A stretch of 62,499 nt of DNA, taken from NCBI GenBank assembly GCA_902785605.1, contig CACZZL010000016.1:1-62499 (forward strand), given 5' to 3'. The notes under the pieces were generated by a model. The model ran no database searches. It was not told the DNA's origin and was given only the letters and a program-made list of their open reading frames with translations. Positions 7,681 through 60,795 of this stretch are shown here, piece after piece. The stretch is from an uncultured Bacteroidales bacterium. GTDB lineage: Bacteria > Bacteroidota > Bacteroidia > Bacteroidales > Paludibacteraceae. The position numbers were made by a program, and so were the translations under genes. Position 1 is the stretch's first letter, and the number at the start of each line of letters is the position of its first letter.

Positions 7681-9600
7681 TCAAAAAGTACCCCGCAGCA
7701 GCACATGGATATCCGTCCTGGTCATCGAGCGGTTGTGAGCTGTTGCCCAACTCTTCTCATAGATTGTTTCGCTGAGGCGGCAATAGAGTGCGATGTGAGG
7801 ATGAGCCTGCCATTTGAGGCAGAGATACGCCCGGCCGCCCAAACCGTAACTGGCCGGAATCGAGAACGCATAGAGCACATCGTGCTCGTAGAGGTAAATG
7901 CGGTTGTCCCAGTTGCGGGCATCGAAGAACTGTGCTCGCAGGCGAAGAGCAAGTGGTACACGACTGAAACTGTATGCCACGTCCTGCGCCAAACTGACAC
8001 CGTAAGGTAAAGGTGATTGGTTATTGGTGATAGGTGATTGGTTATAATCCGCGGTTGTTCTCAGACTCCATTCGCCCTTACTCCAATCGAACTGTGCCCG
8101 GGCAGAGTAGGTGGACGTGGCGCCTTTCTTTCGTGCACGCAAGCGAAGAGAAAGCCACCATTGGTGATTGGTGATTGGTGATTGGTTATTGTTGATTTTA
8201 GATTGGTGATTGTAGCGCACTTCGCCGAGGAGATCGTAGCCGAGCGTGCCGGGTTGGGGAATGCCGTACTTGACTCCGCTGAAGTAGAACACATCCGCAT
8301 AGCCGCTGAAACGCCATTTGCGCAGACGTGTGATCTCAAAACCCAGGTATCCGCCGTTCTCGTCACCCAGACGCGAAGTCTCGGAGAACGCATAGCCCAG
8401 CGCGTTGTCGAAATAGGGCGAGTAATAGCGGTAGAGTGCAACTAGTGACACCCCATCGGTGGGGTAGAAACGGGAGCCGATGATCGTGCCAGAACCCCAT
8501 TTCTCGTTCTGCGCGGTCGCTACTTCTCCGAACAGGTCGAACCAGCCGTGGTTATACCGAAACGAGGCCCCGATAACGGCTTGGTTGTACCCGCGAAAAT
8601 AGTGTTGGTTATACGCGGCGTTGTTGTACGGGCGTATACTATCCGACCAGAGTTTCTCGGCTGCGGTCAGTTGCACTTCCAGCCGCTTATGGCGCAGCGT
8701 GAGATTCGCTCCAAGCACATGTCTCCACGTGCTGTCATTGGCATGACTCATAGAGTATAACGCGCTGACATCCAATCGGGTAGCCTTGCCCCAGTTCCAT
8801 CGACACGTAGCCCCGATACCATGTAACGCCGCACCATCTACCGACGAGTAATAACGCAACCCTTCGCGCGTCTGACCCGCTGAGGCTACGTAACTCGATT
8901 TGCCGGAATGGAACGCCGGCGCGAACACGAGTCCTTGGCCAAATGAGGCCTGGAAATTACCCGCCACAAGGCTGTGCAAATGACCGATGTCCCGCAACTG
9001 AAGATACGCTCCGTACTGCAGGTCTTTTGCTTCTCCTCCTGCCGGCCTTCGTAACTGTGCGCCGAATGTGACACGACGTTGAAAATCAAAACGATAACGA
9101 CCCTGCACGTACATAGGATCGGACCCCTCAAATGACTCTATGTTACGAGCATCCAAACGGACAACGAGTTCGTGTTTCGCGTGCGCGAACACCTCGCGCG
9201 CGTACATTTTATTATTAGTGTTCTCCGCCTCTCGGCTGTCAGCTATTTGCACGAAGGGCAGAAGGTTGCGGATGTCGTAGTCGGCGAGCGAATGAATCAA
9301 CCGAAGCTCATAGAGCGATTCGAACGGGTGTCTGTCCGCGTAGGCGAGAATGTCGTCTATCTGACGCGGCGAGAGGAAATAGAGTCGGGCGAGTTCTTCA
9401 TCCGATGTGTGGTTAAGGTCAATTGGCGCATCGTGTAGCGCGTACAAGTCCGTTTGGAGTTGCTCATAATCGGTCTCGCTGAACTCCGAAACGGCATTGT
9501 AGATGTCCAATATGATATCCTCCAGCGTCTGTCCCAAGGCAGACGAGGTGCCAAACATGGTACAAAGTACAAAGAATATGACGCTCAGATGCTGTTTCAC
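7681..9600 (-). CDS. Helix-hairpin-helix outer-membrane beta-barrel protein
   Basis: A 639-residue protein. I chose GTG 9600 (the upstream in-frame start is TTG inside the -7 region); it gives MKQHLSVIFFVLCTMFGTSS then ALGQ, a signal peptide. Residues of about 40-105 (DLNHTSDEELARLYFLSPRQ, FESLYELRLIHSLADYD) are a ComEA-like helix-hairpin-helix pair. The rest is a long array of amphipathic strands rich in Y, R and G typical of an outer-membrane barrel. Its role is unknown; homologues occur across Bacteroidota. Two heptad-repeat blocks are inside the gene (8012-8047 and 8160-8213), coding NQSPITNNQ-type loops between strands. The -7 box ends only 4 bp before GTG, so the mRNA may be leaderless. 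Confidence 0.7.
   Translation of the reverse strand: MKQHLSVIFFVLCTMFGTSSALGQTLEDIILDIYNAVSEFSETDYEQLQTDLYALHDAPIDLNHTSDEELARLYFLSPRQIDDILAYADRHPFESLYELRLIHSLADYDIRNLLPFVQIADSREAENTNNKMYAREVFAHAKHELVVRLDARNIESFEGSDPMYVQGRYRFDFQRRVTFGAQLRRPAGGEAKDLQYGAYLQLRDIGHLHSLVAGNFQASFGQGLVFAPAFHSGKSSYVASAGQTREGLRYYSSVDGAALHGIGATCRWNWGKATRLDVSALYSMSHANDSTWRHVLGANLTLRHKRLEVQLTAAEKLWSDSIRPYNNAAYNQHYFRGYNQAVIGASFRYNHGWFDLFGEVATAQNEKWGSGTIIGSRFYPTDGVSLVALYRYYSPYFDNALGYAFSETSRLGDENGGYLGFEITRLRKWRFSGYADVFYFSGVKYGIPQPGTLGYDLLGEVRYNHQSKINNNQSPITNHQWWLSLRLRARKKGATSTYSARAQFDWSKGEWSLRTTADYNQSPITNNQSPLPYGVSLAQDVAYSFSRVPLALRLRAQFFDARNWDNRIYLYEHDVLYAFSIPASYGLGGRAYLCLKWQAHPHIALYCRLSETIYEKSWATAHNRSMTRTDIHVLLRGTF
8012..8047 (-). 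repeat. Heptad repeat block inside the HHH gene (1)
   Basis: Five units of 7 bp (GGTGATT, GGTTATT, GGTGATA, GGTGATT, GGTTATA) on the plus strand. They code YNQSPITNNQSPLP in the gene. Confidence 0.9.
8160..8213 (-). repeat. Heptad repeat block inside the HHH gene (2)
   Basis: About seven 7-bp units, mostly ATTGGTG with variants ATTGTTG and ATTTTAG. They code NHQSKINNNQSPITNHQ between two barrel strands. Confidence 0.9.
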
Positions 9601-9604
9601 GATG

Positions 9605-9635
9605 CAAAAGTACAACTTTTTTTGTATATATCAAA
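9605..9635 (-). promoter_or_regulatory. Promoter of the HHH gene, overlapping its divergent partner
   Basis: TTTG (9635-9632), a 19-bp spacer and TACTTTTG (9612-9605) on the minus strand. The -33 box lies inside the spacer of the divergent plus-strand promoter 9621-9652, so two polymerases cannot bind at once. Confidence 0.75.
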
Positions 9636-9652
9636 ATTTTTTTGTACCTTTG
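9621..9652 (+). promoter_or_regulatory. Promoter of the flippase-like gene
   Basis: TTTG (9621-9624), a 20-bp spacer and TACCTTTG (9645-9652). The start codon is 9 bp downstream. The stretch 9626-9655 is identical over 30 bp to 55917-55946, another divergent promoter region. Confidence 0.85.
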
Positions 9653-9661
9653 CACAAAATT

Positions 9662-13713: not shown

Positions 13714-14640
13714 TTATAGTGTCTCCAGTTTCGCTTTCACTTGCTCCATCAGCCACAACGGTGTGCTGGTGGCGCCGCATATTCCGACCTTCAAGTCGGG
13801 ATTTTTGGATTTGTGATTTATGATTTCAAATTTCAAATTTTCGACTTCGTCGGGCGAAGAGACGAAATAGGTGTGCTCGTTCGCTTCCTTACAGTGGTTG
13901 AACAGCACTTTTGCGTTGCTGCTCTTGGTGCCTCCGACGAAGAAGACAATGTCGTTGCTCCGGGCGAAGTCCTGCAACTGCGCTACGCGGTTAGCCACAT
14001 TGCGGCAGATGGTGTCGTGGTATTCGAAAGAGGCGCTTTCTTCTCGACATCTCGAGGTCTCGAGGTCTCGACATTTCGACCGGCGCGCCTCGATGGAAGC
14101 AACCAGTTCTTGAAAACCTTCGACGGATTTGGTGGTCTGCGAGAAGAGGTAGATCGGCCGGTTAAAATCAAGCCGGTCGAGTTGGTCCGGGGACTCGATG
14201 ACGATCGCGGTGTTATTCGTTTGACCTTGCAAACCAATCACCTCCGCGTGCCCGGGTTTGCCGTAGATGACGATCTGTGGCGGTTGGGGTTCGTCATTGC
14301 GGTGCGTCTCGTAGCAGGCACGGATTCGATCCTGCAGTTTCTTAACGACCGGGCAGGTGGCATCGATGACCTCAATGCCGCGTTGCTGTGCGATCCAATA
14401 GGTGGAAGGCGGTTCGCCGTGTGCACGAAGCAGGACACGGGAGTGGGAGGGTAAGGTGCGCAGGTCATCATAATCGATGGTGCGCAGACCCAGCAGTTCG
14501 AGCCGCGCTACTTCCTGTCCATTGTGCACAATGTCGCCGAGACAACAGAGCGAGCCGTTCTGCAACTCGCTTTCTGCCGCTTTGATGGCACGGGTAACAC
14601 CGAAGCAGAAACCACTATTGGTGTCGATCGAACAAGTCAT
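13714..14640 (-). CDS. ispH: 4-hydroxy-3-methylbut-2-enyl diphosphate reductase
   Basis: A 308-residue [4Fe-4S] enzyme, the last step of the MEP isoprenoid pathway. Cluster cysteines are C12 (SGFCFGV), C96 (DATCPVVKK) and C212 (DTICRNVANR); the substrate motifs RAHGEPPS and GGTKSSNAKVL are present. It starts inside the end of cmk (26-bp overlap), and the order porQ-cmk-ispH is also found in Porphyromonas. Two repeat blocks interrupt it: octads at 14041-14080 (KCRDLETSRCRE, just before the third cysteine) and heptads at 13801-13842 (KFEIINHKSKNP). Both lie at expected loops, so the enzyme should still work. Confidence 0.95.
   Translation of the reverse strand: MTCSIDTNSGFCFGVTRAIKAAESELQNGSLCCLGDIVHNGQEVARLELLGLRTIDYDDLRTLPSHSRVLLRAHGEPPSTYWIAQQRGIEVIDATCPVVKKLQDRIRACYETHRNDEPQPPQIVIYGKPGHAEVIGLQGQTNNTAIVIESPDQLDRLDFNRPIYLFSQTTKSVEGFQELVASIEARRSKCRDLETSRCREESASFEYHDTICRNVANRVAQLQDFARSNDIVFFVGGTKSSNAKVLFNHCKEANEHTYFVSSPDEVENLKFEIINHKSKNPDLKVGICGATSTPLWLMEQVKAKLETL
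13801..13842 (-). repeat. Heptad repeat block inside ispH
   Basis: On the coding strand AATTTGA, AATTTGA, AATCATA, AATCACA, AATCCAA, AAATCCC. It codes LKFEIINHKSKNPDL near the C terminus. Confidence 0.85.
14041..14080 (-). repeat. 8-bp repeat block inside ispH
   Basis: Units TCGACATC, TCGAGGTC, TCGAGGTC, TCGACATT (plus strand). The coding strand carries GAGACCTCGAGA, shared with the block at 17017-17053 in trmO. Confidence 0.85.
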
Positions 14641-15285: not shown

Positions 15286-16407
15286 TTATTTCATTAATGA
15301 ATTGATATCTAATGTGAGTCCTAACTGGTAGGAGAAATTGGCTTTGGTGAGCTGGCTGACCGCAAAACCGACGCGGGCCTGTTTAATCTTGACTCCTGCG
15401 CCGAGGCCGAAGCCGGCCAACGAACGCTGGTCTGCGAGGTTGAGTTCGGCGCGGCGACGGTGGTTGTAACTGAGCGCGATGTAGAACTTCTCGCTCTTGG
15501 GCACAATCTCCACCGCCCAGATTGTGTGGCGGAACAGCATATCGTACCATTTGACATCGTGCGGGATGATGTCTCCGGTTGTCGGGCTCTTGTCCAGGCT
15601 GGTCCATTCGTAATTGAGATACCAGGTCTGCATGTTGTGTATCTGCAGGTGGAACCGCAACGGGGCATGCTTGACGCGGTAGGTGAGACCGAGTTGGAGG
15701 TTGAGCGGCAGCATCTCGTGATTCGAACCGCCTTCGGCGGAGTAGAATCCTTTGATCTGCCATCCTATGTTCTGCAGCACAAGACCCATCTGGAACGTGG
15801 AGTCGGGTGTCTGGAAGTGCGCACCGACGTCGGCTCCAATCGCGAACGAACTGTAACTCTCGTAGATGGAGTAGACGGGTTTGAGTGTGACACCTATCTT
15901 CCAACAGGGGTGCAGTTGGCGCGCGTACATGACATCAATAAGGATATCGCGTGCGCCGAACGATCCGCCGGTCAGGTTACCGTCCTGGTCGGCGTACTGC
16001 ATGCGGCCGTAGTCGAGGTAATGGAGCCCGACTGCGAAGTAGTTGGGCTTATCGGGCTCGCCTTCAATAGCAGGTTCGATCTTAGAACGTCCGAAGTTAT
16101 GCCCGTATAAGGCAGAGCCGAACATGGTGCCCGGGAGGTAATAGGAGTAGTTGAGTTGCAGCGTCATGTGGCTCTCGTTGTGCAGAAGGGCAGGGTTGCA
16201 CATACCCATCGAAATGTCTCCGTCGCTGAGGCTGACGTTGCTGCCGCCCAAGGCGTTCAGACGCGACGAGACCGGCAGACTCATGAACGAGAACACCGAT
16301 CGCCCTGCGCTGGATACCTGCGCCTGGCAAAATGCAAAATGAAAGATGAAAAATGAAAGGATCATCCATCCTCTCCATTCGAATCTATGTATGCTTCCTT
16401 TTTTCAC
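15286..16407 (-). CDS. porQ: Type IX secretion system protein PorQ
   Basis: A 373-residue outer-membrane barrel protein. The start is GTG 16407, giving a basic N-region (KKGSIHRFEWRGW) before the hydrophobic core; ATG 16365 is an alternative. The mature part (SAGRSVFSFMSLPVSSRLNA, LGGSNVSLSDGDISMGMCNP) is the PorQ/PorV-type start, followed by many strands (GLHYLDYGRMQYADQDGNLT). PorQ is thought to work with PorU/V/Z in the cell-surface attachment complex that cleaves CTDs. Synteny with cmk and ispH supports the call. Oddly, the signal-peptide core FFIFHFAF is coded by a heptad DNA repeat (16328-16360). Confidence 0.85.
   Translation of the reverse strand: MKKGSIHRFEWRGWMILSFFIFHFAFCQAQVSSAGRSVFSFMSLPVSSRLNALGGSNVSLSDGDISMGMCNPALLHNESHMTLQLNYSYYLPGTMFGSALYGHNFGRSKIEPAIEGEPDKPNYFAVGLHYLDYGRMQYADQDGNLTGGSFGARDILIDVMYARQLHPCWKIGVTLKPVYSIYESYSSFAIGADVGAHFQTPDSTFQMGLVLQNIGWQIKGFYSAEGGSNHEMLPLNLQLGLTYRVKHAPLRFHLQIHNMQTWYLNYEWTSLDKSPTTGDIIPHDVKWYDMLFRHTIWAVEIVPKSEKFYIALSYNHRRRAELNLADQRSLAGFGLGAGVKIKQARVGFAVSQLTKANFSYQLGLTLDINSLMK
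16328..16360 (-). repeat. Heptad repeat coding the PorQ signal-peptide core
   Basis: On the coding strand TTTCATT, TTTCATC, TTTCATT, TTGCATT, TTGCC. The product is SFFIFHFAFCQ. Confidence 0.85.
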
Positions 16408-16654: not shown

Positions 16655-16684
16655 CGCTCTCCCCAAAAATTAAAATTTTCGGGG
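16655..16684 (-). promoter_or_regulatory. Conserved hairpin in the tRNA-Phe leader
   Basis: The minus-strand 30 nt (CCCCGAAAATTTTAATTTTT, then GGGGAGAGCG) are identical to 49801-49830 upstream of tRNA-Leu. CCCC...GGGG with an A/T-rich palindromic core folds into one long hairpin. It lies about 63 nt before the tRNA. Confidence 0.7.
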
Positions 16685-16728
16685 GCCCCGGAGGACTCCG
16701 TCCAACTTTCATTTTTGGAAAGCGGCTG

Positions 16729-16760
16729 CAAAAGTACTGCTTTTTTTTGACATGTGCAAA
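16729..16760 (-). promoter_or_regulatory. Promoter of tRNA-Phe
   Basis: TTTG, a 20-bp spacer and TACTTTTG on the minus strand. The whole 20-bp spacer is identical to that of the sufT-like gene (51972-51991) and ends in TCA(8)GCAG, shared with two other tRNA promoters. Confidence 0.85.
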
Positions 16761-16836: not shown

Positions 16837-17637
16837 ATGGAACTAAAAGTGATTGCTTATGCCCGCAACGGGCACACGGATAAATTCGGCATTCCTCGCC
16901 AGAGTCGGGACGAGAGTCCGATTGTTACGCGTATCGTTTTTGAACCCGAATTTCGGGTTGCGGAAGCCCTTCGTGGCATCGAAGGGTACAGCCATCTGTG
17001 GCTGATATGGGGTTTTTCGGAGACCTCGAGATCTCGAGATGCCGAAACTTCGACTGATTCATGGAACCCGACGGTTAGGCCGCCGCGGTTGGGAGGTAAT
17101 ACGCGAATGGGGGTGTTCGCTACGCGGAGTCCGTATCGGCCTAATCCGTTAGGACTATCCAGTGTCCGGCTGATAGCCGTCCGCATAAATGAAAAATTAA
17201 AAATTAAAAATGAAAAATTATCCGAGATACCGACTGAGAAGGGCAGTTTTGAACTGATTGTGAGCGGAGCGGATCTGTTGGACGGGACACCGATCTATGA
17301 CATCAAGCCGTATTTGAGTTTTTCGGATAGTCATGAAGCGGCGCAAAACGGCTTCGCGGAGGAGACGAAAGACTATCGTTTGGAGGTTGATTGGGGGCTC
17401 TCAAAACGGTTGGTGACCCGAGAATGGACCGATAATGGACCGACATTGGACCGAGAACGGACCGATGAAGTTTCGGAAGAATGGATGCGGGATGTGACCT
17501 ATATTCTGTCGCAAGATCCTCGCCCGGCCTATCAGGATGACCCGTCGCGGGAGTATAAACTGGACTATGCGGGGTACACGATAACATTTATTGTGGACCG
17601 ACAAACAGTGCATGTCAAAAAAATTGTGAAAATATAG
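16837..17637 (+). CDS. trmO: tRNA (N6-threonylcarbamoyl-A37) methyltransferase, TrmO/TsaA type
   Basis: A 266-residue protein from ATG 16837; the longer frame reads through the promoter. It starts MELKVIAYARNGHTDKFGIP, then PIVTRIVFEPEFRVAEALRG, IEGYSHLWLIWGF, and the SAM-dependent TrmO signature TRSPYRPNPLGLSSVRL. It methylates t6A37 in certain tRNAs. The C-terminal domain (KDYRLEVDW...YKLDYAGY) is present. Three repeat blocks of different period sit inside: 8 bp (ETSRSRDAETST), 7 bp (KLKIKNEKLS) and 11 bp (WTDNGPTLDRERTDEV). All are in frame and between conserved motifs. Confidence 0.9.
   Translation: MELKVIAYARNGHTDKFGIPRQSRDESPIVTRIVFEPEFRVAEALRGIEGYSHLWLIWGFSETSRSRDAETSTDSWNPTVRPPRLGGNTRMGVFATRSPYRPNPLGLSSVRLIAVRINEKLKIKNEKLSEIPTEKGSFELIVSGADLLDGTPIYDIKPYLSFSDSHEAAQNGFAEETKDYRLEVDWGLSKRLVTREWTDNGPTLDRERTDEVSEEWMRDVTYILSQDPRPAYQDDPSREYKLDYAGYTITFIVDRQTVHVKKIVKI
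17017..17053 (+). repeat. 8-bp repeat block inside trmO
   Basis: Around CCTCGAGA, TCTCGAGA, TGCCGAAA. It codes SETSRSRDAETST and shares GAGACCTCGAGA with the ispH block on the coding strand. Confidence 0.8.
17187..17220 (+). repeat. Heptad repeat block inside trmO
   Basis: AAATGAA, AAATTAA, AAATTAA, AAATGAA, AAATTA. It codes NEKLKIKNEKL. Confidence 0.9.
17425..17468 (+). repeat. 11-bp repeat block inside trmO
   Basis: Four units TGGACCGATAA, TGGACCGACAT, TGGACCGAGAA, CGGACCGATGA. It codes WTDNGPTLDRERTDE. Confidence 0.85.
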
Positions 17638-21019: not shown

Positions 21020-21023
21020 TACA

Positions 21024-48502: not shown

Positions 48503-49744
48503 TCATTCATATGTCAAAATGTAAGTATTCGAGACTTCGAACAACTCTTGTGCAATTTGTTGCAACCGACGGGCATCCGTTTGTTCAATCTTTCGCATCG
48601 TCTCTTCCCATTCCGGGGCATAACCGCGGTACAAAACGGACTTGGCCAAACTCAACGCACTGTTCTCCTGATTCTGCGCAGAGATCGCCAACTGACCGCG
48701 TAACTGCACCAACGCATGACGCAGCGCCGCGTCCGAAAGCGGCGTGTCCCTCAGCTTGTCCAATTCCTTACGAACCAGCGAATGACTCAAGCTGTAGTCC
48801 TCCGGGTCACACGCCCAATAGACGCACCAATACCCCGTGTCACTCAGCGGTGTGTAGGTCGACTCCACGGTATAAACGAGCCCTTTTGCTTCGCGCAAAC
48901 TCAGGTTCAGACGGCTGTTCAGGCTTCCGCCGCCTAAGATATTATTCAGCAGAAACATCCCCAACTGATCCTCATGACCGATCGGGTACGCCCTGCCGCC
49001 TAACATCGCATGCACCTGATGCGTATGTTTCTTATAACTCGCCTGCCGCTCTGCGGCAAACGGAGTGCTTCCTTTCGCCTTTAACCTTTCGCCTCTCGCC
49101 TTTATCCCCCCGAACTCCTTTTCCGCCAACCGGAAGAACCGCTCCGGCTTCACATTGCCCTGACAGAACACCACCATCCGATCCGGGGTGTAGTTGCGCT
49201 CCATCCACCGCTTTGCGTAGTCCGGCTTCGAAGACAGGTGTTTCAGCGTCTTTTTGGTGCCTAAGATAGGCTGCGCCAAGGGGCTGCCGGCAAACACCAA
49301 TCCCTCAAAATCATCGTAGATCAATTCGCTCGGCTGGTCGTTGTAACTCTCGATCTCATCCAATATCACCATTCGCTCCTTGTCCGTCTCCTCTTTCTTG
49401 AAACTCGGCTCCAGCACCATCTCCGCAATCAAATGCAAGCTCAACTGCACGTGCTCGCACAGCGTCGCGGCGTAGAACGTGGTCTCCTCCTTCGTCGTGT
49501 ATGCATTCACTTCGCTTCCCACACCTTCCAGTGCCTGAATGATCTGACGGGCCGAATGGTGCGCTGTGCCCTTGAAAACACAGTGCTCGATATAATGCGC
49601 CATTCCGTTCTCTTCCGGCGCCTCATCCCGCGTACCGGCACCCACCATCACCCCCACATACGCTACCGGAGACGGGGTCTGTCGGTGCACAATTTTGACA
49701 CCGTTTGGCAAAATATGATAAAAAGTTTGCGAATTTACTTGCAT
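48503..49744 (-). CDS. M16-family zinc peptidase
   Basis: A 413-residue protein, half the length of pitrilysins, as in the processing-peptidase-type subgroup. The inverted zinc motif HYIEH is at 50-54 (NGMAHYIEHCVFKGTAHHSA) with the downstream Glu helix (VNAYTTKEETTFYA). The second domain begins at PLAQPILGTKKTLKH. No clear signal peptide. A heptad repeat block (49070-49106) codes GIKARGERLKAKGS in a loop between the domains. Its start overlaps the divergent tRNA-Leu promoter. Confidence 0.9.
   Translation of the reverse strand: MQVNSQTFYHILPNGVKIVHRQTPSPVAYVGVMVGAGTRDEAPEENGMAHYIEHCVFKGTAHHSARQIIQALEGVGSEVNAYTTKEETTFYAATLCEHVQLSLHLIAEMVLEPSFKKEETDKERMVILDEIESYNDQPSELIYDDFEGLVFAGSPLAQPILGTKKTLKHLSSKPDYAKRWMERNYTPDRMVVFCQGNVKPERFFRLAEKEFGGIKARGERLKAKGSTPFAAERQASYKKHTHQVHAMLGGRAYPIGHEDQLGMFLLNNILGGGSLNSRLNLSLREAKGLVYTVESTYTPLSDTGYWCVYWACDPEDYSLSHSLVRKELDKLRDTPLSDAALRHALVQLRGQLAISAQNQENSALSLAKSVLYRGYAPEWEETMRKIEQTDARRLQQIAQELFEVSNTYILTYE
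49070..49106 (-). repeat. Heptad repeat block inside the M16 peptidase gene
   Basis: Coding strand AAAGGCG, AGAGGCG, AAAGGTT, AAAGGCG, AAAGGA. It codes IKARGERLKAKGS. Confidence 0.9.
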
Positions 49745-49979: not shown

Positions 49980-50791
49980 TTCTTTGCTTCGTTCCAGAGC
50001 TCATCCATCTCGGCGAGCGTCATGTCCTTCAACTCCTTGCCTTGCTCTTTCGCCTTGGCTTCTACGTAATTGAATCGCCGAATGAACTTCAGGTTCGTCT
50101 GCTCCAGTGCATTATCCGGCCGGATCTTATAGAGTCGTGCGGCATTAATCAGTGCGAACAATACATCCCCGAATTCCGCTTCCATACATTCGCCATTCGC
50201 CCTTTCGCCATTCGCCTTTACTTCTTCTTCGAACTCTGCGATTTCTTCTTTGACTTTCGCCCACACATCCTCTTTCTTCTCCCAATCGAACCCCACATTC
50301 GCCACCTTGTCCTGAATCCGATACGCCTTCACCAAGCTCGGCAGACTGTCCGGTATACCGCCCAACACGGTCTTGTTCCCGCCTTTCTCCTTGAGCTTCA
50401 CCTGCTCCCACAGCTTACTCACCTCTTCAGCGTTTTCTACTTTTCCCGTAACCCGTAACCCCTCACCCGTAACCTCTCCATATACATGGGGATGGCGGTA
50501 TATCAATTTATCGCTAATCCGGTTACATACATCCGCGATATCGAATTCGCCGGTCTCACTTCCCATCTTGGCGTAGAACACGACGTGTAGCAGCACGTCC
50601 CCGAGCTCTTTGCTGATCTCGTTCATGTCGTGCCGCGAAATCGCCGTCGCCAATTCGTAGGTCTCCTCAATCGTGTTCTGCCGTAGGCTGTCGAAGGTCT
50701 GCTTGCGGTCCCACGGACATTTCTCCCTCAGGTCGTCCATGATATCCAACAACCGCCCGAACGCCTGTAATTGTTCTTCTCTCGTATGCAT
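49970..50791 (-). CDS. mazG: Nucleoside triphosphate pyrophosphohydrolase MazG
   Basis: A 273-residue protein that cleaves NTPs/dNTPs to monophosphates. Two MazG domains: REKCPWDRKQTFDSLRQNTI with EETYEL and ELGDVLLHVVFYA; then VKEEIAEFEEE and EAEFGDVLFALINAARLYKI. Two heptad blocks are inside: EVTGEGLRVTGK (50445-50480) just after HPHVYG, and EVKANGERANGE (50187-50221) in the second domain just before EAEFGD. Both are loop positions. It follows lpxH by 21 bp of 8-bp repeat. Confidence 0.95.
   Translation of the reverse strand: MHTREEQLQAFGRLLDIMDDLREKCPWDRKQTFDSLRQNTIEETYELATAISRHDMNEISKELGDVLLHVVFYAKMGSETGEFDIADVCNRISDKLIYRHPHVYGEVTGEGLRVTGKVENAEEVSKLWEQVKLKEKGGNKTVLGGIPDSLPSLVKAYRIQDKVANVGFDWEKKEDVWAKVKEEIAEFEEEVKANGERANGECMEAEFGDVLFALINAARLYKIRPDNALEQTNLKFIRRFNYVEAKAKEQGKELKDMTLAEMDELWNEAKNAA
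50187..50221 (-). repeat. Heptad repeat block inside mazG (1)
   Basis: Coding strand AAAGGCG, AATGGCG, AAAGGGCG, AATGGCG. It codes VKANGERANGE. Shares TAAAGGCGAATGGCGAA with a pepP block. Confidence 0.9.
50445..50480 (-). repeat. Heptad repeat block inside mazG (2)
   Basis: Coding strand GGTTACG, GGTGAGG, GGTTACG, GGTTACG, GG. It codes EVTGEGLRVTGK. Identical over 30 bp to the murE block but in the opposite orientation relative to the gene. Confidence 0.95.
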
Positions 50792-52076: not shown

Positions 52077-54011
52077 ATGAGCAAAGGTAATATTGGGGTA
52101 ACGTCAGATAACATCTTCCCCGTCATTAAGAAATTTTTGTATTCCGACCACGAGATCTTCCTCCGCGAACTGATCTCCAATGCCGTCGATGCTACGTCCA
52201 AACTCAAAACGCTCTCGTCCGTCGGCGAAGTGAAGGGCGACCTGGGTGATACGCGTGTGCGCGTGACTATTGATAAGGAAAAGAAAACACTCACCGTCTC
52301 CGATCACGGAATCGGCATGACCGCCGAAGAAGTGGATAAGTACATCAACCAAATTGCTTTCTCCGGCGCGGAGGAGTTCCTTAACCAATACAAGGACAAA
52401 GCCGAAGCCATCATCGGCCATTTCGGCCTCGGATTCTATTCCGCCTTCATGGTCTCCAAGAAAGTGGAAATCTTTAGCCAGTCCTACAAGGAAGACGCGA
52501 AAGCCGTACACTGGTCCTGCGAAGGCTCGCCCGAGTACACGATGGAGGACACCATCAAATCCGAACGAGGCACCGACATCGTCCTCCATATCGACGACGA
52601 GTTTAGCCAGTACCTTGAGGATGCTACCATCGAAGGGCTTTTGAAAAAATACTGTAAGTTCCTGCCCGTCGAAATAGCTTTCGGCAAGCGCAAAGAATGG
52701 AAAGACGGCAAGCAAGTCGAACTCGATGAGGAGAACATCATCAACGATACGACGCCTGCTTGGACCCGTAAGCCTGCGGATCTGACCGAAGAGGACTACG
52801 ACCACTTCTACCACGAACTGTACCCCATGCAGCTCGACGAACCGCTCTTCCACATCCACCTCAACGTGGACTACCCCTTCAACCTCACCGGTATCCTCTA
52901 TTTCCCGAAGATCAAGTCCAACCTTGACGTGCACCGTAACAAGATCCAGCTCTACTGCAACCAGGTCTACGTCACCGACGAAATCGAAAACATCGTGCCG
53001 GAGTACCTGACCCTGCTCCATGGTGTCATCGACAGCCCGGACATCCCGCTCAACGTCAGCCGTTCGTACCTGCAGTCGGATAACAACGTCAAGAAAATTA
53101 GCGGATACATCACCAAGAAGGTCGCGGACAAACTGGCTGAACTCTACAAAGCCGACAAGGACGACTTCGCCAAGAAATGGGACGACATCAAGATGTTCAT
53201 CCAGTTCGGCATGCTTACCGATGAGAAGTTCTACGAGAAAGCCACCTCGTTCGCGCTCTACAAGAACCTCAACGGCGACTACGCCACCCTCGATGAGTAC
53301 ATGGACAAAGTGCGTGAATCACAGGTCGATAAGGACGGAAACATGGTCCTGCTCTATACCAACGATCCCGATGCCCACTACACCTATATCGAGCGCGCCA
53401 AAGCCAAAGGATACGATGTGCTGCTCATGGACGGTGAGTTAGACGTGCACTGCATGTCCCAGGCCGAGCAGAAACGCGAACACCTCCGTTTCGTACGAAT
53501 CGACTCCGACACCATCGAGAACCTGATTCGCAAAGAGGATACGGCCCAGGATACCTACACCGACGAGCAGAAAGAGGGTCTGCGTAAGGCCTTCGAAGCC
53601 CTGCTGCCGTCTGCGGAAGACAAACTGCGGTACAATGTCACAACCGAAGCCGCTGCAGCCGACGCCCTGCCCGTCTTCCTGACCCAGAACGAGTTCATGC
53701 GCCGAATGAAAGAGATGTCCGCCCACCAGCAAGGCATGTCCTTCTACGGCTCCATGCCCGACTCCTACAACCTCGTCATCAACACCGCGCATCCGCTCAT
53801 TCAAGAGTTAGTGGGCAAAGAGACGAGCGAACAGGTGAACGAGGAAGTTGAGAATGACGGAAAGAAAGAGACCGTCGTTAAAACGGTCTATTCCTTGGCG
53901 AACGAAGATGAGCGTCTTAAACAACTCATCGACATCGCGCTGCTCGCAAGTGGTCAACTGAAAGGCGAAGCGCTCGCGAAGTTCGTGAACCGCTCGGTAG
54001 AGCTCCTGTAA
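52077..54011 (+). CDS. htpG: Molecular chaperone HtpG (Hsp90)
   Basis: A 644-residue protein. N-terminal GHKL ATPase: LRELISNAVDATSKL, DHGIGMTAEEVDKYINQIAF, then GLGFYSAFMV. Middle domain with LLHGVIDSPDIPLNVSRSYL. C-terminal dimer domain LINTAHPLIQELVGK. Length is normal for the phylum. The stop codon lies inside the heptad block 54008-54036 shared with the converging aminopeptidase gene. Confidence 0.95.
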   Translation: MSKGNIGVTSDNIFPVIKKFLYSDHEIFLRELISNAVDATSKLKTLSSVGEVKGDLGDTRVRVTIDKEKKTLTVSDHGIGMTAEEVDKYINQIAFSGAEEFLNQYKDKAEAIIGHFGLGFYSAFMVSKKVEIFSQSYKEDAKAVHWSCEGSPEYTMEDTIKSERGTDIVLHIDDEFSQYLEDATIEGLLKKYCKFLPVEIAFGKRKEWKDGKQVELDEENIINDTTPAWTRKPADLTEEDYDHFYHELYPMQLDEPLFHIHLNVDYPFNLTGILYFPKIKSNLDVHRNKIQLYCNQVYVTDEIENIVPEYLTLLHGVIDSPDIPLNVSRSYLQSDNNVKKISGYITKKVADKLAELYKADKDDFAKKWDDIKMFIQFGMLTDEKFYEKATSFALYKNLNGDYATLDEYMDKVRESQVDKDGNMVLLYTNDPDAHYTYIERAKAKGYDVLLMDGELDVHCMSQAEQKREHLRFVRIDSDTIENLIRKEDTAQDTYTDEQKEGLRKAFEALLPSAEDKLRYNVTTEAAAADALPVFLTQNEFMRRMKEMSAHQQGMSFYGSMPDSYNLVINTAHPLIQELVGKETSEQVNEEVENDGKKETVVKTVYSLANEDERLKQLIDIALLASGQLKGEALAKFVNRSVELL

Positions 54012-54036
54012 CCGGTAACCGGTAACCCGTAACCCC
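54008..54036. repeat. Heptad repeat between htpG and pepP stops
   Basis: GTAACCG, GTAACCG, GTAACCC, GTAACCC, CTATAA. It contains the htpG TAA and fills the whole convergent gap. Confidence 0.85.
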
Positions 54037-55877
54037 TATAACTCTATCGCCGCGCACTTGCGTGCAAGGAACTTAGCCTCGTCTGCATTCAGCAACGGGG
54101 CTGTTTCTTTGTACACCCGTACGTGGTACGCGTTGATCCAATCGATCTCGTCCTCCGTCATCAGGCTCATCTCGATCAGATTCGTGTCGTAGAAACAGAG
54201 CGTCAGCGTCTCGAACTGCAGCCACTCGTCTTCCGTCGTCGTTGCCTTCGTCGGCTTGGCGGGAATGACCGTGATCAGGTTCTCCGTACGAATACCCCAT
54301 TTATCGGTACGATAAATACCCGGCTCATCGGAGATGATATGACCCACTTCCAATGCGGTCGGGTTATTGTCCGTACGCACGTTCTGCGGACCCTCATGGC
54401 AGCCTAAGAAATGGCCGACACCGTGCCCCGTACCGTGACCGAACGTGATACCCGCTTCCCACATGTACTGTTTGGCGAGCGCGTCAAGTTGATTGCCTCT
54501 TGTGCCGCGCGGGAAACGTGCGCGTTGGAGGGCGATGTGTCCTTTGAGCACGTATGTGTAATCCAATTTAGCCTGCTGCGGGATCCGTCCGCCGAGCCAC
54601 ACTGTACGCGTGATATCCGTCGTGCCGTCCAGGTACTGACCGCCGCTATCCAGCAGCAGCATACCTTCCGGCTTCACCTCGGCGCACTGGTCCTTCGTGG
54701 CGGCATAATGCACAATAGCACCGTTGCCGTTGTATCCCGCAATCGTACCGAAACTCTCCTCCACGAAGTTCTCACCCATCATCCGGAACTCATGCAACTT
54801 CTCCATCAAATCCCACTCGGTCAACTTGCCATTCGCCGTTAACCATTCGCCATTCGCCTTTAGTTCTTCCAGCCACTTAAAGAACCTTGTCAGCGCAGCC
54901 GCATCTTGCCGCATCGCTATCCGTTCTCCTTCCAGCTCCACCGCATTCTTCTTCGCTTTGTCGATGAGAATGACCGATTTGGTATTCACCTTCTTGCATC
55001 CTTCCGGGATCGCTTCAAAGAGCGCTTCATTGACGCGAGCACCGTCGTACAGCACGGTACCACTGAGGCTTGCGATGTAATCGAAGACCGCCTCATAAGG
55101 CTTAATGTCTATATTGTTGAAATCCAAATAGTTCTGCGCCATCGTATCCACCTTGTTTGCATCCACAAACAGCGTGCACTTATCCGCCTCCAGTACTACA
55201 TAACTAATCACTACCGGGTTGTACTCCACATCGTTTCCGCGGATATTGAGCAACCACGCAATCTCATCCAGCGCGGAGATGATCATGGCCCACCCTTCGC
55301 CTTTAACCTTTACCCTTTCGCCTGCAAGCTTGCGCATCCGCGCGAGCTTGCTCTCCACCGTCTCTCCTGCAAAATCCGCAGAGTAGGGATACAGCTTATC
55401 CTGCGGGATAGCCGGACGACCCTCCGTCCAGATCGGCTTGATGAGATCAATGCTCTTCACCTCCATCCCTGCTTCTGAAAACTTCTCTTTCCACTCCTTG
55501 AAATCATTCACGCTGAACATCTCAGGATTCACACCAACCTTTGTACATTGTACATTGTTCATTGTACATTGATCACAGATCCATTCTGTGATGGATGGAC
55601 AATCCACATCGCTCTCCCGCATCAACTCGATCGTGCTGTCCTTCAGCTCAATGCCGGCCTGCAGGTAGTACCGGCTATCGGTCCACAGCAGCGCCCGGTC
55701 CATCGTCACTACCATCGTGCCGGCTTCGCCGTTGAAACCGCTCAACCACTGCATCTCGCACCAATGGCTGGCCATATATTCACTCGCGTGCGGGTCGTTT
55801 CCCGGTACCACATACACGCTTACTCCGTTCTCTTTCATCAGCGCACGCAGCGCTGCCAAACGCTCTAAAACTGTCAT
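54036..55877 (-). CDS. pepP: Xaa-Pro aminopeptidase (M24B, aminopeptidase P type)
   Basis: 613 residues from ATG 55877; the longer frame reads into the promoter. Two creatinase-like N-terminal domains are followed by the pita-bread domain with metal ligands in LLDSGGQYLDGTTDITRT, FGHGTGHGVGHFLGCHEGP and the later ENLITVIPA/LQFETLTLC. It releases N-terminal residues before proline. Three heptad blocks are inside: CTMNNVQCTK (55541-55572), GERVKVKGEG (55291-55324) and KANGEWLTANGK (54824-54863). Confidence 0.9.
   Translation of the reverse strand: MTVLERLAALRALMKENGVSVYVVPGNDPHASEYMASHWCEMQWLSGFNGEAGTMVVTMDRALLWTDSRYYLQAGIELKDSTIELMRESDVDCPSITEWICDQCTMNNVQCTKVGVNPEMFSVNDFKEWKEKFSEAGMEVKSIDLIKPIWTEGRPAIPQDKLYPYSADFAGETVESKLARMRKLAGERVKVKGEGWAMIISALDEIAWLLNIRGNDVEYNPVVISYVVLEADKCTLFVDANKVDTMAQNYLDFNNIDIKPYEAVFDYIASLSGTVLYDGARVNEALFEAIPEGCKKVNTKSVILIDKAKKNAVELEGERIAMRQDAAALTRFFKWLEELKANGEWLTANGKLTEWDLMEKLHEFRMMGENFVEESFGTIAGYNGNGAIVHYAATKDQCAEVKPEGMLLLDSGGQYLDGTTDITRTVWLGGRIPQQAKLDYTYVLKGHIALQRARFPRGTRGNQLDALAKQYMWEAGITFGHGTGHGVGHFLGCHEGPQNVRTDNNPTALEVGHIISDEPGIYRTDKWGIRTENLITVIPAKPTKATTTEDEWLQFETLTLCFYDTNLIEMSLMTEDEIDWINAYHVRVYKETAPLLNADEAKFLARKCAAIEL
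54824..54863 (-). repeat. Heptad repeat block inside pepP (1)
   Basis: Coding strand AAAGGCG, AATGGCG, AATGGTT, AACGGCG, AATGGC. It codes KANGEWLTANGK. Confidence 0.9.
55291..55324 (-). repeat. Heptad repeat block inside pepP (2)
   Basis: Coding strand AGGCGAA, AGGGTAA, AGGTTAA, AGGCGAA, GGGTG. It codes AGERVKVKGEGW. Confidence 0.9.
55541..55572 (-). repeat. Heptad repeat block inside pepP (3)
   Basis: Plus strand TACATTG, TACATTG, TTCATTG, TACATTG. It codes CTMNNVQCTK. Confidence 0.9.
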
Positions 55878-57561: not shown

Positions 57562-59343
57562 ATGACATTAGAACAGCATATTTCTTTTTTGACTAAATCC
57601 GCTGTTAAGGCGCTTTATGACGTCGATGCAACCGACGAGCAGATCCAGTTGCAAAAAACCCGTCCGGAGTTCGAAGGCAACATCACCCTCGTCGTCTTCC
57701 CCTTCGTCAAACTCGCCCGCAAAGCCCCTGCTCAGGTGGCTACCGAGATCGGCGAATGGCTAATGGCGAAGGGTGAAGGGCTGATAGCTCGTTTTAACGC
57801 CGTACAGGGCTTCCTCAACCTCGTTATCGACGACACCTTCTGGGTTCACCAACTCGAGGCCATCGATGCGGACGCTCACTACGGTCAGCAGCCCGATCGT
57901 CATCAGCTCATGATGGTCGAGTACTCCTCGCCCAACACCAATAAGCCTTTGCACCTCGGCCACGTCCGCAACAACCTCCTCGGTTACTCCATCGCGCGTA
58001 TCCAGGAAGCCAACGGATGGCGCGTCGTCAAGACCAATATCGTCAACGACCGCGGAATCCATATCTGCAAATCCATGCTCGCGTGGCTGAAATTCGGCAA
58101 CGGCGAGACACCCGAGTCCTCCGGTAAGAAAGGCGATCACCTCATCGGGGACTACTACGTCCGTTTCGACAAGGAGTACAAAGCGCAGATAGCCGAGCTC
58201 ATGGCCAACGGCCTCGACGAAGAGACCGCCAAACGCGAAGCACCCCTCATGCGCGAGGCGCAGGAGATGCTCCGGAAATGGGAAGCCAACGACCCCGAGG
58301 TACGCGCGCTCTGGGCACGCATGAACGAATGGGTCTATGCCGGCTTCGACGAGACCTACCGCCGCATGGGTGTGTCGTTCGATAAGATCTACTACGAGTC
58401 CAACACCTACCTCGAGGGTAAGTCCGAAGTGGAGAAAGGACTCGCGTCCGGTCAGTTCTACCGCCGCGAAGACGGCTCCGTTTGGGCAGACCTCACCAAG
58501 GACGGGCTCGACGAGAAACTGCTGCTCCGTTCGGACGGCACCTCCGTCTATATGACCCAGGACATAGGCACCGCCAAACTGCGGTTCCAAGACTATCCGA
58601 TCGATAAGATGGTCTATGTCGTCGGCAACGAGCAGGAGTACCACTTCAAGGTGCTCTCTATCCTCCTTGACCGCCTCGGATTCCCCTTCGGCAAGGAACT
58701 CGTCCATTTCTCCTACGGCATGGTCGAACTGCCGAACGGTAAGATGAAATCGCGTGAAGGTACGGTCGTCGATGCCGATGACCTCATGGATAAGATGGTC
58801 GAAGATGCCCGCGAGATCTATCTCCAGAAAAATGACCAATCTACAATGTCCAATGTCCAATGCGACGAAGTCGCACGGATGGTAGGACTCGGTGCACTCA
58901 AGTACTTCATCTTGAAGGTGGACCCGCGTAAGAACATGCTCTTCAACCCCGCCGAGTCAATCGATTTCAACGGCAACACCGGTCCCTTCATCCAGTACAC
59001 CTACGCCCGTATTCAATCCGTCCTCCGCAAAGCGGAGGGAGCGGTTACGGGTTACGGGTTACAGGTTACGGGTCTTGATCCCAAGGAGCTCCAGCTCATT
59101 CAGCGCCTCACGGAGTACCCGGCGATCGTCCGCACGGCCGGTAACGATTTCTCCCCGGCCGTCATCTGTAACTACGCTTACGCGCTGGCGTGCGATTTCA
59201 ACTCGTTCTACCACGACTTAAGCATCCTCAACGAACCGGATGCGTCCAAACGGGCCCTCCGCCTGCTGCTGGCAAAGAACGTAGCGAAAGTGCTCTGCTC
59301 CTCCATGTCCCTGCTCGGCATCGAAATGCCCGAGCGCATGTGA
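57562..59343 (+). CDS. argS: Arginyl-tRNA synthetase
   Basis: A 593-residue class I synthetase. HIGH-like motif PNTNKPLHLGHVRNN, KMSK-like GKMKSREGTVVDADD, and a DALR C-terminal domain (CNYAYALACDFNSFYHDLSI). Three heptad blocks are inside: GEWLMAKGEGL (57751-57780) in the N-terminal domain, DQSTMSNVQC (58831-58863) shortly after the KMSK-like loop, and AVTGYGLQVTGL (59042-59072) before the anticodon-binding domain. The gene must be functional, so the repeats are tolerated. It ends 1 bp from the converging DUF2851 gene. Confidence 0.95.
   Translation: MTLEQHISFLTKSAVKALYDVDATDEQIQLQKTRPEFEGNITLVVFPFVKLARKAPAQVATEIGEWLMAKGEGLIARFNAVQGFLNLVIDDTFWVHQLEAIDADAHYGQQPDRHQLMMVEYSSPNTNKPLHLGHVRNNLLGYSIARIQEANGWRVVKTNIVNDRGIHICKSMLAWLKFGNGETPESSGKKGDHLIGDYYVRFDKEYKAQIAELMANGLDEETAKREAPLMREAQEMLRKWEANDPEVRALWARMNEWVYAGFDETYRRMGVSFDKIYYESNTYLEGKSEVEKGLASGQFYRREDGSVWADLTKDGLDEKLLLRSDGTSVYMTQDIGTAKLRFQDYPIDKMVYVVGNEQEYHFKVLSILLDRLGFPFGKELVHFSYGMVELPNGKMKSREGTVVDADDLMDKMVEDAREIYLQKNDQSTMSNVQCDEVARMVGLGALKYFILKVDPRKNMLFNPAESIDFNGNTGPFIQYTYARIQSVLRKAEGAVTGYGLQVTGLDPKELQLIQRLTEYPAIVRTAGNDFSPAVICNYAYALACDFNSFYHDLSILNEPDASKRALRLLLAKNVAKVLCSSMSLLGIEMPERM
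57751..57780 (+). repeat. Heptad repeat block inside argS (1)
   Basis: GGCGAAT, GGCTAAT, GGCGAAG, GGTGAAG, GG. It codes GEWLMAKGEG. Confidence 0.9.
58831..58863 (+). repeat. Heptad repeat block inside argS (2)
   Basis: AATGACC, AATCTAC, AATGTCC, AATGTCC, AATGC. It codes NDQSTMSNVQC. Confidence 0.9.
59042..59072 (+). repeat. Heptad repeat block inside argS (3)
   Basis: GGTTACG, GGTTACG, GGTTACA, GGTTACG, GG. It codes VTGYGLQVTG (after a C at 59042). Confidence 0.9.
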
Positions 59344-59344: not shown

Positions 59345-60592
59345 TCAGAACAAGCGTAACTGTTTGTCTTGGAAAATTTGATAGCCCACCTCGCAGTTGA
59401 TACACTCGTGGTGCTGGCAATAATTCTGATAGAGGTGAAGCAATGCTTGCGAATCAGCGGCGTTCTTCACCTCTTGACCTAATATACGCCATTGGCGAAT
59501 GATCGTGTTGTTCTCCGGTGCAATCCGCTCCATGAGCGCCAAGGCCTCCTCCGCCTGCTGCGCATGGTTCCGGTAACGCGCGTATGCGTATTTATAAGGA
59601 ATAACAGTATTAATCAGCAATATATCAATACTGGCCTTGCCTATCTTATCGACCACGAACAGCTTCTCCAACTCGTTCAAATCCTGCTTGTCCAAAATCT
59701 TACTCAGCAGCGACTCGGACTGATAGAGCAGCTGTGCAAACTGCCGAATACGCAACTCGGGACTGTTCTGCGGACGTAGCCGCGCATGTTTCCATATACT
59801 CCCGTCCATCGGACTCAAGCCGAACTTGGTCCGCAAGAACGCATACTCCTTGGCGAGCGCTTCCCGGTCATCCGCATGGCAAAAACTGTTCGGTTCTAAA
59901 CCGCCGGCTTGTCCCATCAGCAGGGCAGTCAACTGAAACAGGTTATTGCGGTGTTTCTGCAAGTAGGATAGGGGCGTGTTAATCGCCAACTGCTCAAATG
60001 GCAGACTGTTCGTGTGAAAACCGAAATTCCTTGCTAATGAGATATAGAGCGCATGCTCCCAACTCCCTTTGGTGATCTCCAACAACCGCTCGATCGATGC
60101 CCGTTTGCACTCCAGCCTTTTGCGCAGCAACGTGCGCCGCCAACCTTCACTCAGCATCGCCGGGTCACGCACTAACTGCTCGGCACAACCGATACGCATG
60201 AACGCACTGTCCATCTGTTGCGCGCTCTCAAACAACCGGCTCAAATAGTCCTGATCACTCGGGTACTGCAACTCACACTGCGGCACCAACTCACCCCGTG
60301 AGTTATACACCGGCTTGTCTGCCGTCCGAACCACATGCAGGATCACACTGTCGTACGCCTTGTCCAGATGATGACGGTGCTTGACCCAATCCGTTGCACA
60401 CACGTGCAGCTCGATGTTACCGACCCATTCCTTACCGTCTATCCGCACCCGCGCATGACTGTAGTCCGGACCCGCATCGCGGTTGTGCTCCCCTACAGAG
60501 AGTATCTCCACGCTCCGTCCGTCCGTTGTCCGTTGCTCAAACCCTGCCCACAGACAATGCTCCCAGATGTAATGTAATACGATTTCCGGCAT
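59345..60592 (-). CDS. DUF2851 family protein
   Basis: A 415-residue protein without signal peptide or membrane segments. It starts MPEIVLHYIWEHCLWAGFEQ and contains GPDYSHARVRIDGKEWVGNI and ELHVCATDWVKHRHHLDKAY, the conserved N-terminal core of the DUF2851 family of Bacteroidota. A helical part follows, with a C-terminal cysteine cluster (HHECINCEVGYQIFQDKQ). Biochemical role unknown; the GPD...EVH-type N-terminal core has been compared to nuclease folds, but I cannot support that here. Confidence 0.8.
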   Translation of the reverse strand: MPEIVLHYIWEHCLWAGFEQRTTDGRSVEILSVGEHNRDAGPDYSHARVRIDGKEWVGNIELHVCATDWVKHRHHLDKAYDSVILHVVRTADKPVYNSRGELVPQCELQYPSDQDYLSRLFESAQQMDSAFMRIGCAEQLVRDPAMLSEGWRRTLLRKRLECKRASIERLLEITKGSWEHALYISLARNFGFHTNSLPFEQLAINTPLSYLQKHRNNLFQLTALLMGQAGGLEPNSFCHADDREALAKEYAFLRTKFGLSPMDGSIWKHARLRPQNSPELRIRQFAQLLYQSESLLSKILDKQDLNELEKLFVVDKIGKASIDILLINTVIPYKYAYARYRNHAQQAEEALALMERIAPENNTIIRQWRILGQEVKNAADSQALLHLYQNYCQHHECINCEVGYQIFQDKQLRLF

Positions 60593-60600
60593 TTCGACTG

Positions 60601-60632
60601 CAAAGGTACAACAAATTATTCAAATCTGCAAG
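60601..60632 (-). promoter_or_regulatory. Promoter of the DUF2851 gene
   Basis: CTTG, a 20-bp spacer and TACCTTTG (60608-60601) on the minus strand, 9 bp before the ATG. Confidence 0.8.
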
Positions 60633-60772
60633 ATTTGGACGTTTTTTTTGCATATGTTAGTTTTTTTTTGCTTCTACCCGGTGGTTTCCCTCGCCATTAA
60701 CTGCTTCGCCGTCTCTTCGGTTTTTCGGGAAGGGATCTATGCTCTCTTATGCGGAGTACCCGCAAGGGTAAA

Positions 60773-60795
60773 GTAATGGCTAATGGCTAAAGTAA
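60773..60795 (+). repeat. Short heptad repeat in the candidate RNA
   Basis: TAATGGC, TAATGGC, TAAAGTA. It belongs to the same AATGGC-type heptad class as the in-gene blocks. Confidence 0.7.

Follow-up and report, generated by a model that had tools for sequence, protein, structure and literature searches.

Why do ordinary and essential genes of one bacterium carry short blocks of degenerate heptamers within their reading frames? The question is raised by contig CACZZL010000016.1 from an uncultured Bacteroidales bacterium of the family Paludibacteraceae, and the window analysed here is this whole contig (contig 16; 62,499 nucleotides) of a 2.08-Mb genome that is 83.5% complete. Heptamer repeats are over-represented in many bacteria, and their origin and spread are unexplained. 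An earlier note on the window, made from the letters alone, had described about 30 blocks as a dispersed class of short-period tandem repeats that are tolerated in essential genes and filtered for frame. Our results uphold the dispersal, the tolerance and the frame filter, and in-frame presence in unrelated protein-coding genes is confirmed. As to what the blocks are, we consider it probable that many of them are copies of very short dispersed element families (~28-36 bp, about four degenerate heptamers each) that have spread in one gut genus of Paludibacteraceae; three such families are called F1, F2 and F3 below.

Arrays were detected with Tandem Repeats Finder (TRF) and with a separate period-score caller, both of which recover the blocks, and order-2 and order-5 Markov resamples served as the chance control. 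For the window TRF returns 54 rows, and 24 of these have period 7. Under the stringent period score the window holds 10 period-7 arrays, against a mean of 0 in 10 order-2 and 10 order-5 resamples. A larger sample of the same genome (462,499 bp; the window plus 20 further stretches) yields 145 arrays of period 4-24, of which 79 have period 7, the next commonest periods being 11, 21, 8 and 14; one order-2 and one order-5 resample of this sample gave 0 and 0 arrays. That the period-7 blocks exceed chance is thus borne out. The number of blocks is lower than first stated: with stricter calling, 23 arrays remain in the window when all periods are counted, and the figure of about 30 came without a full list that would permit a block-by-block comparison. 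Two finer claims stand. The intervals 22780-34101 and 34130-50187 contain no period-7 TRF row, so the uneven spread holds for period 7, and the proposed A-n-n-G-G phase is seen in the 11 GG-bearing window blocks, where 33 of 42 GG pairs that recur seven bases on have an A three bases upstream.

The host is probably a gut bacterium of ruminants. The best named matches of the window argS are 80 loci, 73-90% identical and titled Paludibacteraceae, Bacteroidales, Bacteroidia or Candidatus Colicola, and many of these loci are ruminant-derived. Per 100 kb, period-7 arrays number 17.1 in the own genome (GC content 0.51), 13.7 in the 58 named loci with argS 81-90% identical (GC 0.50) and 7.0 in the 22 loci at 73-79% (GC 0.49), compared with none in 307,612 bp from two other genera of the family (GC 0.46-0.48) and 0.7 across 16 genomes of the order (276,558 bp; GC 0.40). 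The trait therefore belongs to the genus; the outgroups are AT-richer, so that more chance arrays would be expected there, if anything. The 96 own-genome arrays of period 7, 14 or 21 fall into 44 unit classes, the largest five having 10, 8, 8, 8 and 7 members, and by a crude set of open reading frames (ORFs) 47 lie inside ORFs, 25 at edges and 24 outside. AT-rich, stop-rich families live outside genes. The GC content of the period-7 arrays in this sample is 0.43 inside ORFs and 0.22-0.24 between genes or at edges.

The structure of the families is most informative for F1, a 34-bp sequence reading AATGTACAAAGGGACAATGTACAA[T/A]GTACAAAGG. Copies were sought with a 19-base core as the query, and the bases outside the core were then inspected. 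The odd unit, AGGGACAA, is preceded by exactly one TGTACAA-like unit in 62 of 63 copies and followed by two units in 49 of 63. Across 79 non-redundant copies, positions -4 to -1 on the left flank of the core are conserved at 96, 69, 92 and 86%, and positions +20 to +28 on the right flank at 68-97%; past both limits, of which the left is sharp and the right softer, the sequence is background. F1 contains three TGTACA-like palindromes, has no overall palindrome across its 34 bp, and shows no terminal inverted repeat. In F3 (GGCGAAAGGTTAGAGGC...), two units precede the odd unit in 9 of 11 copies, and one follows it in 10 of 11. F2 reads GGTTACGGGTGACGGGTTACAGG. Irregular sequence is also found intact at unrelated places: murE and mazG of the window have 31 identical bp, which run in opposite directions relative to the two genes, and the unrelated loci L119 and L122 have 33 bp in common. 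Letter-reversed controls give no match for F2, F3 or the ACAATGG core, and one for the ATGACC core. Because of the fixed, irregular unit order of F1 and F3, and in F1 also the sharp ends, these two families behave as short dispersed elements on which slippage is superimposed, and the description of the blocks as simply short-period tandem repeats has to be revised.

Copy numbers differ strongly between genomes of the genus. With at most one mismatch, F1 is present in 36 of 81 genus genomes and absent from 45; the own genome has 20 matches, G091 has 52 and G079 has 42, and the letter-reversed control has none in all 81. When two mismatches are allowed, the counts rise to 43 in the own genome and 83 in G091. 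None of the 245 genomes searched outside the genus, which represent 172 other genera, contains F1.

All six frames of F1 are open, as are three of F2 and two of F3. By a crude ORF rule, 73 of 85 non-redundant F1 copies are coding and 12 are not classed as coding. One hydrophilic frame (NVQRDNVQCTK) is used by 47 of the 73 coding copies (p = 1e-19 against one frame in six), and one antisense hydrophobic frame (FVLCTLSLCT) by 13. The two readings differ in their place in the protein, since 9 of the 13 antisense copies and 3 of the 47 forward ones lie within 45 codons of the upstream stop (Fisher p = 8.5e-6). Judged by eye, seven of the nine N-terminal antisense copies resemble signal peptides (e.g. 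MKRFSLFSIVLCTLSLCTWTKVQA and MRKIILAFVLCTLSLCPLFSQ); antisense copies unlike a signal peptide are those of L031 and L236, and that of L216 has no ATG start at the right place. Ten own-genome hosts of the NVQRDNVQCTK reading were scanned for Pfam families. One has no family at 1e-8, and the others carry Mfd/TRCF, pullulanase, RlmN, a UPF0004/radical-SAM family, UvrA, dehydroquinate (DHQ) synthase, a Mur ligase-alanine racemase fusion, ketoacyl synthase and a small-domain methyltransferase. For the eight antisense-frame proteins scanned (the seven signal-peptide-like ones and L260), the Pfam families are unrelated or absent: a beta-helix protein, TPR, DUF4960, endonuclease I, an outer-membrane efflux protein, one host with a type IX secretion system (T9SS) sorting tail whose match is below the cut-off, and two with none. 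That selection acts on the frame in which F1 is read is well supported.

The same loops carry different repeats in different species, as seen in murE, pepP, rsmH, mazG, the M16 gene and argS. In murE, compared in 30 genomes, the loop before YILVENTD/FILVENTD is filled by GTTACG, ACAATGG, TGTACAA, ATCATCA or CAACAGC arrays, by hairpins, or by a short turn. The pepP loop before VGVNPE similarly holds other repeat sequences in several other species. Where this pepP loop has no array (L009, L015, L020, L024, L026, L071) it reads NVQG, e.g. AATGTACAGGGC, which resembles the first F1 unit and may be a remnant or a seed. The rsmH loop is a short turn, SRAILEAGAGHLY, in the window and three others, and elsewhere contains F1, CAATTCA arrays or hairpins. 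The third argS site, a linker, is likewise filled by different repeats in different species; in an ArgS structure model built with 27 sequences (mean pLDDT 72), residues 492-506 of this linker are predicted to form a coil flanked by two helices, and a coil is also predicted where the second argS site starts (residues 424-430). The loop of the M16 peptidase gene at alignment columns 214-256 has repeats of period 11 (or 22) bp in many species, with unrelated sequences, as if this loop favours period 11.

In the murE-mazG region 14 genes were tried, and two ORFs with 3 sequences each were dropped, leaving 12 genes in up to 21 genomes. By thresholds set without a shuffled control, 10 of 147 variable sites, in five genes, carry repeats in at least two species; 60 of the 204 alleles at these sites are repeats, with 44 distinct unit labels summed over sites, and one of the ten, in orf567, is weak (hairpins in 2/16). 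No site with repeats in at least two species was seen in the other seven of the 12 genes (ftsI, a short ORF, mraZ, orf926, orf1111, the lpxH-like gene and SUF). Two of these seven are large ORFs, in which 54 and 50 sites vary.

Seven pairs of sister species (~93-99% identity) reveal how such sites change. In these pairs 47 short segments have been replaced between flanks of 85% identity or more, and the length difference is a multiple of 3 in 32 of the 47 (p = 1e-6), a share that varies by pair from 14/17 in L047/L052 to 4/12 in L031/L032. Between L047 and L052 (93.5% identity), F1 stands opposite a hairpin element in argS (37 and 37 bp), opposite an AATTACG array in a second gene, and opposite a hairpin in a third. 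The overall picture is one of replacement plus slippage. Segments swapped in this pair are sometimes of equal length (37/37, 41/41, 50/50) though unrelated in sequence, as are 7 of the 47 over all pairs.

These results suggest a sequence of events in which copies would enter essentially any sequence as whole units, and their survival would then be set by translation. Insertions or replacements that keep the frame may persist in loops if the reading is hydrophilic and near N-termini if it is hydrophobic, and AT-rich, stop-rich families may persist between genes. After arrival, slippage would add or remove heptamers, and later arrivals would overwrite older ones. For the copying step, our favoured guess is that short patches are templated in the course of replication or repair, with the element copied into a gap and a few host bases lost, because the events resemble replacements without target duplication; the sharp ends suggest unit-wise movement. 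We regard patching as slightly more likely than a dedicated enzyme for this step. A bolder version, which we advance tentatively and with clearly less confidence than the existence of the families, is a genus-specific copy-and-paste of ~30-bp words (heptad elements and matching hairpins) that overwrite short stretches instead of simply being inserted, such that loops of essential proteins and signal peptides would be repeatedly rewritten from a shared library. Words open in all six frames, such as F1, could then serve as a hydrophilic loop one way and as the core of a secretion signal the other way.

Several observations weigh against a history of copied elements. F2 is looser than the other families: a single unit precedes the odd unit in 17 of 26 cases and two units do so in 8, one or two units follow it (11 and 15), and 17 of 54 F2 pattern matches in the loci examined lack it. 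For this reason the F2 counts with two mismatches (present in 32 of 81 genomes; 42 in the own genome, 44 in G096, 35 in G051 and 1 in G091) take in regular arrays, and several matches are possible per array, e.g. in contig 27 of G051; as counted, F1 and F2 are abundant in different genomes. Order sharing among the 96 own arrays exceeds order-reversed controls only modestly, with 39 vs 26-28 at the loosest setting, then 18 vs 7-10 and, at the strictest, 6 vs 0-2. The AAAGTTG core has 23 letter-reversed control matches (redundant) beside 16 non-redundant copies. AT-rich families may therefore be mostly slippage products. Unit numbers also change by 7, 14 and 21 bp between sister species, for F1 we found no clean insertion junction at which a sister of high identity has a strictly empty allele, and no moving enzyme was identified in the own genome, which is 83.5% complete. 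The sharp left end of F1, for its part, argues against random template switching. The unit-number changes, the loose order of F2, the modest order sharing and the commonness of low-complexity AT-rich units, together with the strong preference for period 7, favour a slippage-prone polymerase that makes arrays de novo everywhere, selection keeping those in loops and between genes; a polymerase footprint has been proposed as the source of heptamers in the accessible text of PMC4692102. As an account of the whole we judge this unlikely, and for F1 and F3 it is disfavoured. Slippage would not fix the position of the odd unit in F1, the sharp ends of that family or the order of F3, nor place identical irregular 31-33 bp sequences in unrelated genes, and the whole-segment swaps are unlike slippage. 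Loss of mismatch repair was rejected as well, because 39 of 41 genomes, including the own one, have a MutS match above the family cut-off. End joining by Ku was also rejected (Ku in 0 of 41 genomes, and none in the own one).

A dedicated, unrecognised mobile-element enzyme that moves non-autonomous units, as RAYTs (REP-associated tyrosine transposases) move REPINs, seems to us somewhat less unlikely than slippage as the sole cause and still improbable. It would explain the full-length, sharp-ended F1 copies, the bursts specific to genomes and the palindromic elements at the same sites, and the TGTACA repeats of F1 could, from their sequence, pair as a hairpin. The search for such an enzyme speaks against it: the Y1/RAYT domain (PF01797) is absent from the own genome (at its 83.5% completeness) and from G079, weak in G091 and over the cut-off in 21 of 81 genus genomes, and reverse transcriptase is absent from the own genome and G091, with two in G079 and occurrence in 20 of 81 overall. 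Nor is there a target-site duplication signal, as the best of 450 offset/length combinations accounts for 3 of 72 F1 copies, which we take as noise. The exact F1 and F2 cores were not found in viral contigs, nor F1 in plasmids. If the copy-and-paste version is true and a dedicated enzyme drives it, the elements would count among the smallest known units of mobile DNA. Homologous exchange between gut species, shuffling loop alleles without any movement inside genomes, would suit the patchwork of alleles among close species, as at the second argS site. It is refuted as the sole cause by the presence of the same element in unrelated genes of one genome, and the swaps are limited to tens of bp between highly similar flanks; we consider it very improbable. 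Even less credible is convergence, by which codon use and protein constraint would bring low-complexity hydrophilic loops to similar DNA. Most coding copies of F1 do give the same hydrophilic peptide, but the same DNA occurs antisense near N-termini, which refutes convergence for F1, and in the 12 copies not classed as coding; the empty letter-reversed control and the lack of F1 in genomes outside the genus point the same way. Spread of short dispersed families remains the reading that we prefer.

Heptanucleotide short tandemly repeated repetitive (STRR) sequences are known from cyanobacteria, as are small dispersed repeats (SDRs). Repetitive extragenic palindromic (REP) elements and REPINs are short and non-autonomous, occur in many copies and are moved by RAYTs. 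The present blocks share with REP/REPIN elements their shortness and copy number, and hairpin elements occur at the same sites; they differ in that no RAYT domain was found in the own genome and F1 lies mostly in coding sequence. F1 resembles the SDRs, whose unit is ~20-30 bp, in occurring as a whole at many unrelated sites. Miniature inverted-repeat transposable elements (MITEs) are defined by terminal inverted repeats and target-site duplication, neither of which is seen in F1 (no duplication signal in 72 copies).

The kinship in kind with STRR sequences and with in-frame Rickettsia palindromic elements that had been proposed stands. As available to us, PMC4692102 mentions a Calothrix STRR case, describes the GGGNATC-type heptamer repeats of Xanthomonas and Nostoc, and treats heptamer over-representation and slippage as established ideas. 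With these repeats the blocks have in common tandem units of degenerate heptamers at many loci and length and sequence variation between close species. STRR and GGGNATC-type repeats are described as intergenic in the accessible part of PMC4692102, whereas the blocks here stand in frame in essential genes (47/96 arrays in ORFs; 73/85 F1 copies coding). Unit number and order, free in STRR sequences, are not free in F1 and F3, partly free in F2 and modestly ordered over the whole array set; two families thus have a fixed unit order here, and loops swap repeats. The Rickettsia elements also form families that sit in frame in unrelated genes, several per genome, but the available text of PMC10969869 describes them as palindromic and ~150 bp long; no palindrome of ~100-150 bp is seen here, as F1 measures 34 bp and F1-F3 are ~30 bp, built of heptads and not overall palindromes. 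Palindromic units and microdiversity loci of E. coli resemble the blocks in that repeats of ~20-37 bp are possibly mobile and variable segments are replacements, not insertions (PMC2884548); the palindromic units are intergenic there, and neither a heptad build nor a coding-frame filter is described in the portion of that paper open to us.

The claim that heptamer arrays lack a description in Bacteroidales has to be qualified, since heptamer repeats are known in Bacteroidetes, though only with the unit TAACTGA, to judge from the available text of PMC4679880 (MacGregor 2015). TAACTGA direct repeats are reported there from Beggiatoaceae, Cyanobacteria and five Bacteroidetes, Paludibacter propionicigenes having two heptamer repeat sets, and the author asks whether the repeats are mobile now or were formerly. 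They are like the present blocks in their species-specific amplification, in lying partly in ORFs and in their 7-nt indels between sister strains. They differ in having one unit, in standing mostly just upstream of start codons in the main genome, and in that the ORF cases are mostly at protein ends; the accessible sections describe neither frame-selected use nor swapping at one loop. For the combination of features reported here, no description was found in the literature searched, which mostly did not reach subscription papers.

The genus offers dozens of sequenced sister species in which the same essential-gene loops hold different elements, so that arrival, replacement and decay are traceable. 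Selection is visible on the frame in which parasitic-looking DNA is read: depending on direction, one 34-bp sequence gives a hydrophilic loop or a hydrophobic N-terminal core. Essential and ordinary proteins have taken up the elements in loops and in probable secretion signals without being broken. This amounts to a natural large-scale experiment in loop replacement in essential enzymes and shows a way for proteins to acquire new peptide segments. A further consequence is a caution for users of gene models and protein alignments from the genus: these contain species-specific inserts.

The blocks of the window are collected in Table 1. Through its repeat part, a 101-base query from 8160 matched the genome at 16 other places. 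The closest orthologue of the mazG block at 50187 (L154) is 11 residues (33 bp) shorter over the aligned stretch. In a pepP alignment of 34 sequences (26 rows shown, the window included), a similar insert at the 54828 site appears only in L056 among the rows shown, and a different repeat in L045.

Table 1. Repeat blocks in the window, with position, strand and, where noted, detection and context
Block	Position	Strand	Detection or context
Heptamer array ATTGGTG/GGTGATT	8012..8046		TRF; also matched by the 8160 sequence
Heptamer array ATTGGTG	8160..8212		TRF, period score
Heptamer array GATTT(G/A)T	13808..13840		ispH frame; TRF, period score
8-bp array TCTCGACA	14042..14080		ispH frame; TRF, period score
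Heptamer array AAAATGA	16327..16358		near 5' end of porQ ORF, ~residues 16-27
Heptamer array AAATTAA/AAATGAA	17187..17220		within trmO
11-bp array CCGAGAATGGA	17418..17465		trmO frame, beyond TrmO domain match
Heptamer array AATGGCG	20909..20931	+	alpha-amylase gene
F2-type array (GGTTACG)	22751..22780	+	alpha-amylase gene
F2-type element	34101..34130	+	murE; 31 bp identical to mazG copy
9-bp array (CCTAGGTTC)	36822..36858		hypervariable rsmH loop
F3-type element (GGCGAAAGGTTAAAGGCGAA)	49074..49093	-	hypervariable loop of M16 peptidase gene
F3-like array GGCGAAT/GGCGAAA	50187..50216	-	mazG
F2-type element	50445..50478	-	mazG (EVTGEGLRVTG); most relatives EAAAQ or similar
8-bp array TTCCCTAA	50793..50827		between mazG and lpxH-like gene
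Heptamer array ATAAATC	51599..51636		gene junction
Heptamer array AAATCAA	52042..52073		htpG leader
F2-type array (GTTACCG)	54008..54035	-	at htpG stop
F3-like array GGCGAAT	54828..54858	-	pepP
F3-like element	55296..55322	-	pepP
F1-like (TGTACAA, odd unit TGAACAA)	55541..55575	-	pepP loop EWICD...VGVNPE
Heptamer array AATGACC	56785..56815		gene junction
Array AATGACC/AATGTCC	58831..58862	+	argS second site; others SKDKVNTLQGI; net one residue
F2-type array	59043..59073	+	argS third site, linker SVLRKA...LDPKEL

Some gene assignments of the earlier note had to be amended. Three blocks had been placed in argS, which was compared with other families as well, the other host genes being compared within the genus. 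At the second and third sites the repeat residues are absent from orthologues of other families, and these two blocks stand; the stretch at 57751-57781 is ordinary conservation, as nine other-family orthologues align there with a gap of at most one residue, several with IGEWL- or IGEYL-like residues. Of three blocks assigned to trmO, that at 17187 lies inside the gene and that at 17418 in its frame, and 16761-16827 is probably leader DNA, because the TrmO domain starts at residue 76 of the trmO ORF. A block in the M16 gene is present as claimed, in the corrected form of the F3-type copy.

Three further observations concern other repeated sequence. A 30-bp sequence (CCCCGAAAATTTTAATTTTTGGGGAGAGCG) occurs twice in the window, in opposite orientation (16655-16684 and 49801-49830), with a near relative in L005, and looks like another hairpin-type dispersed element. 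The window at ~16719-16753 and many leaders of the own genome share TGCAAAGGTACTGCTTTTTTTTGA and variants, which we presume to be a Bacteroidetes-type promoter; the 16-mer TACTGCTTTTTTTTGA is found at 21 places in the sample. Two adjoining alpha-amylase genes (19208-22862) share an identical stretch of 53 bp, at 19490 and 21306, suggesting a recent duplication or conversion.

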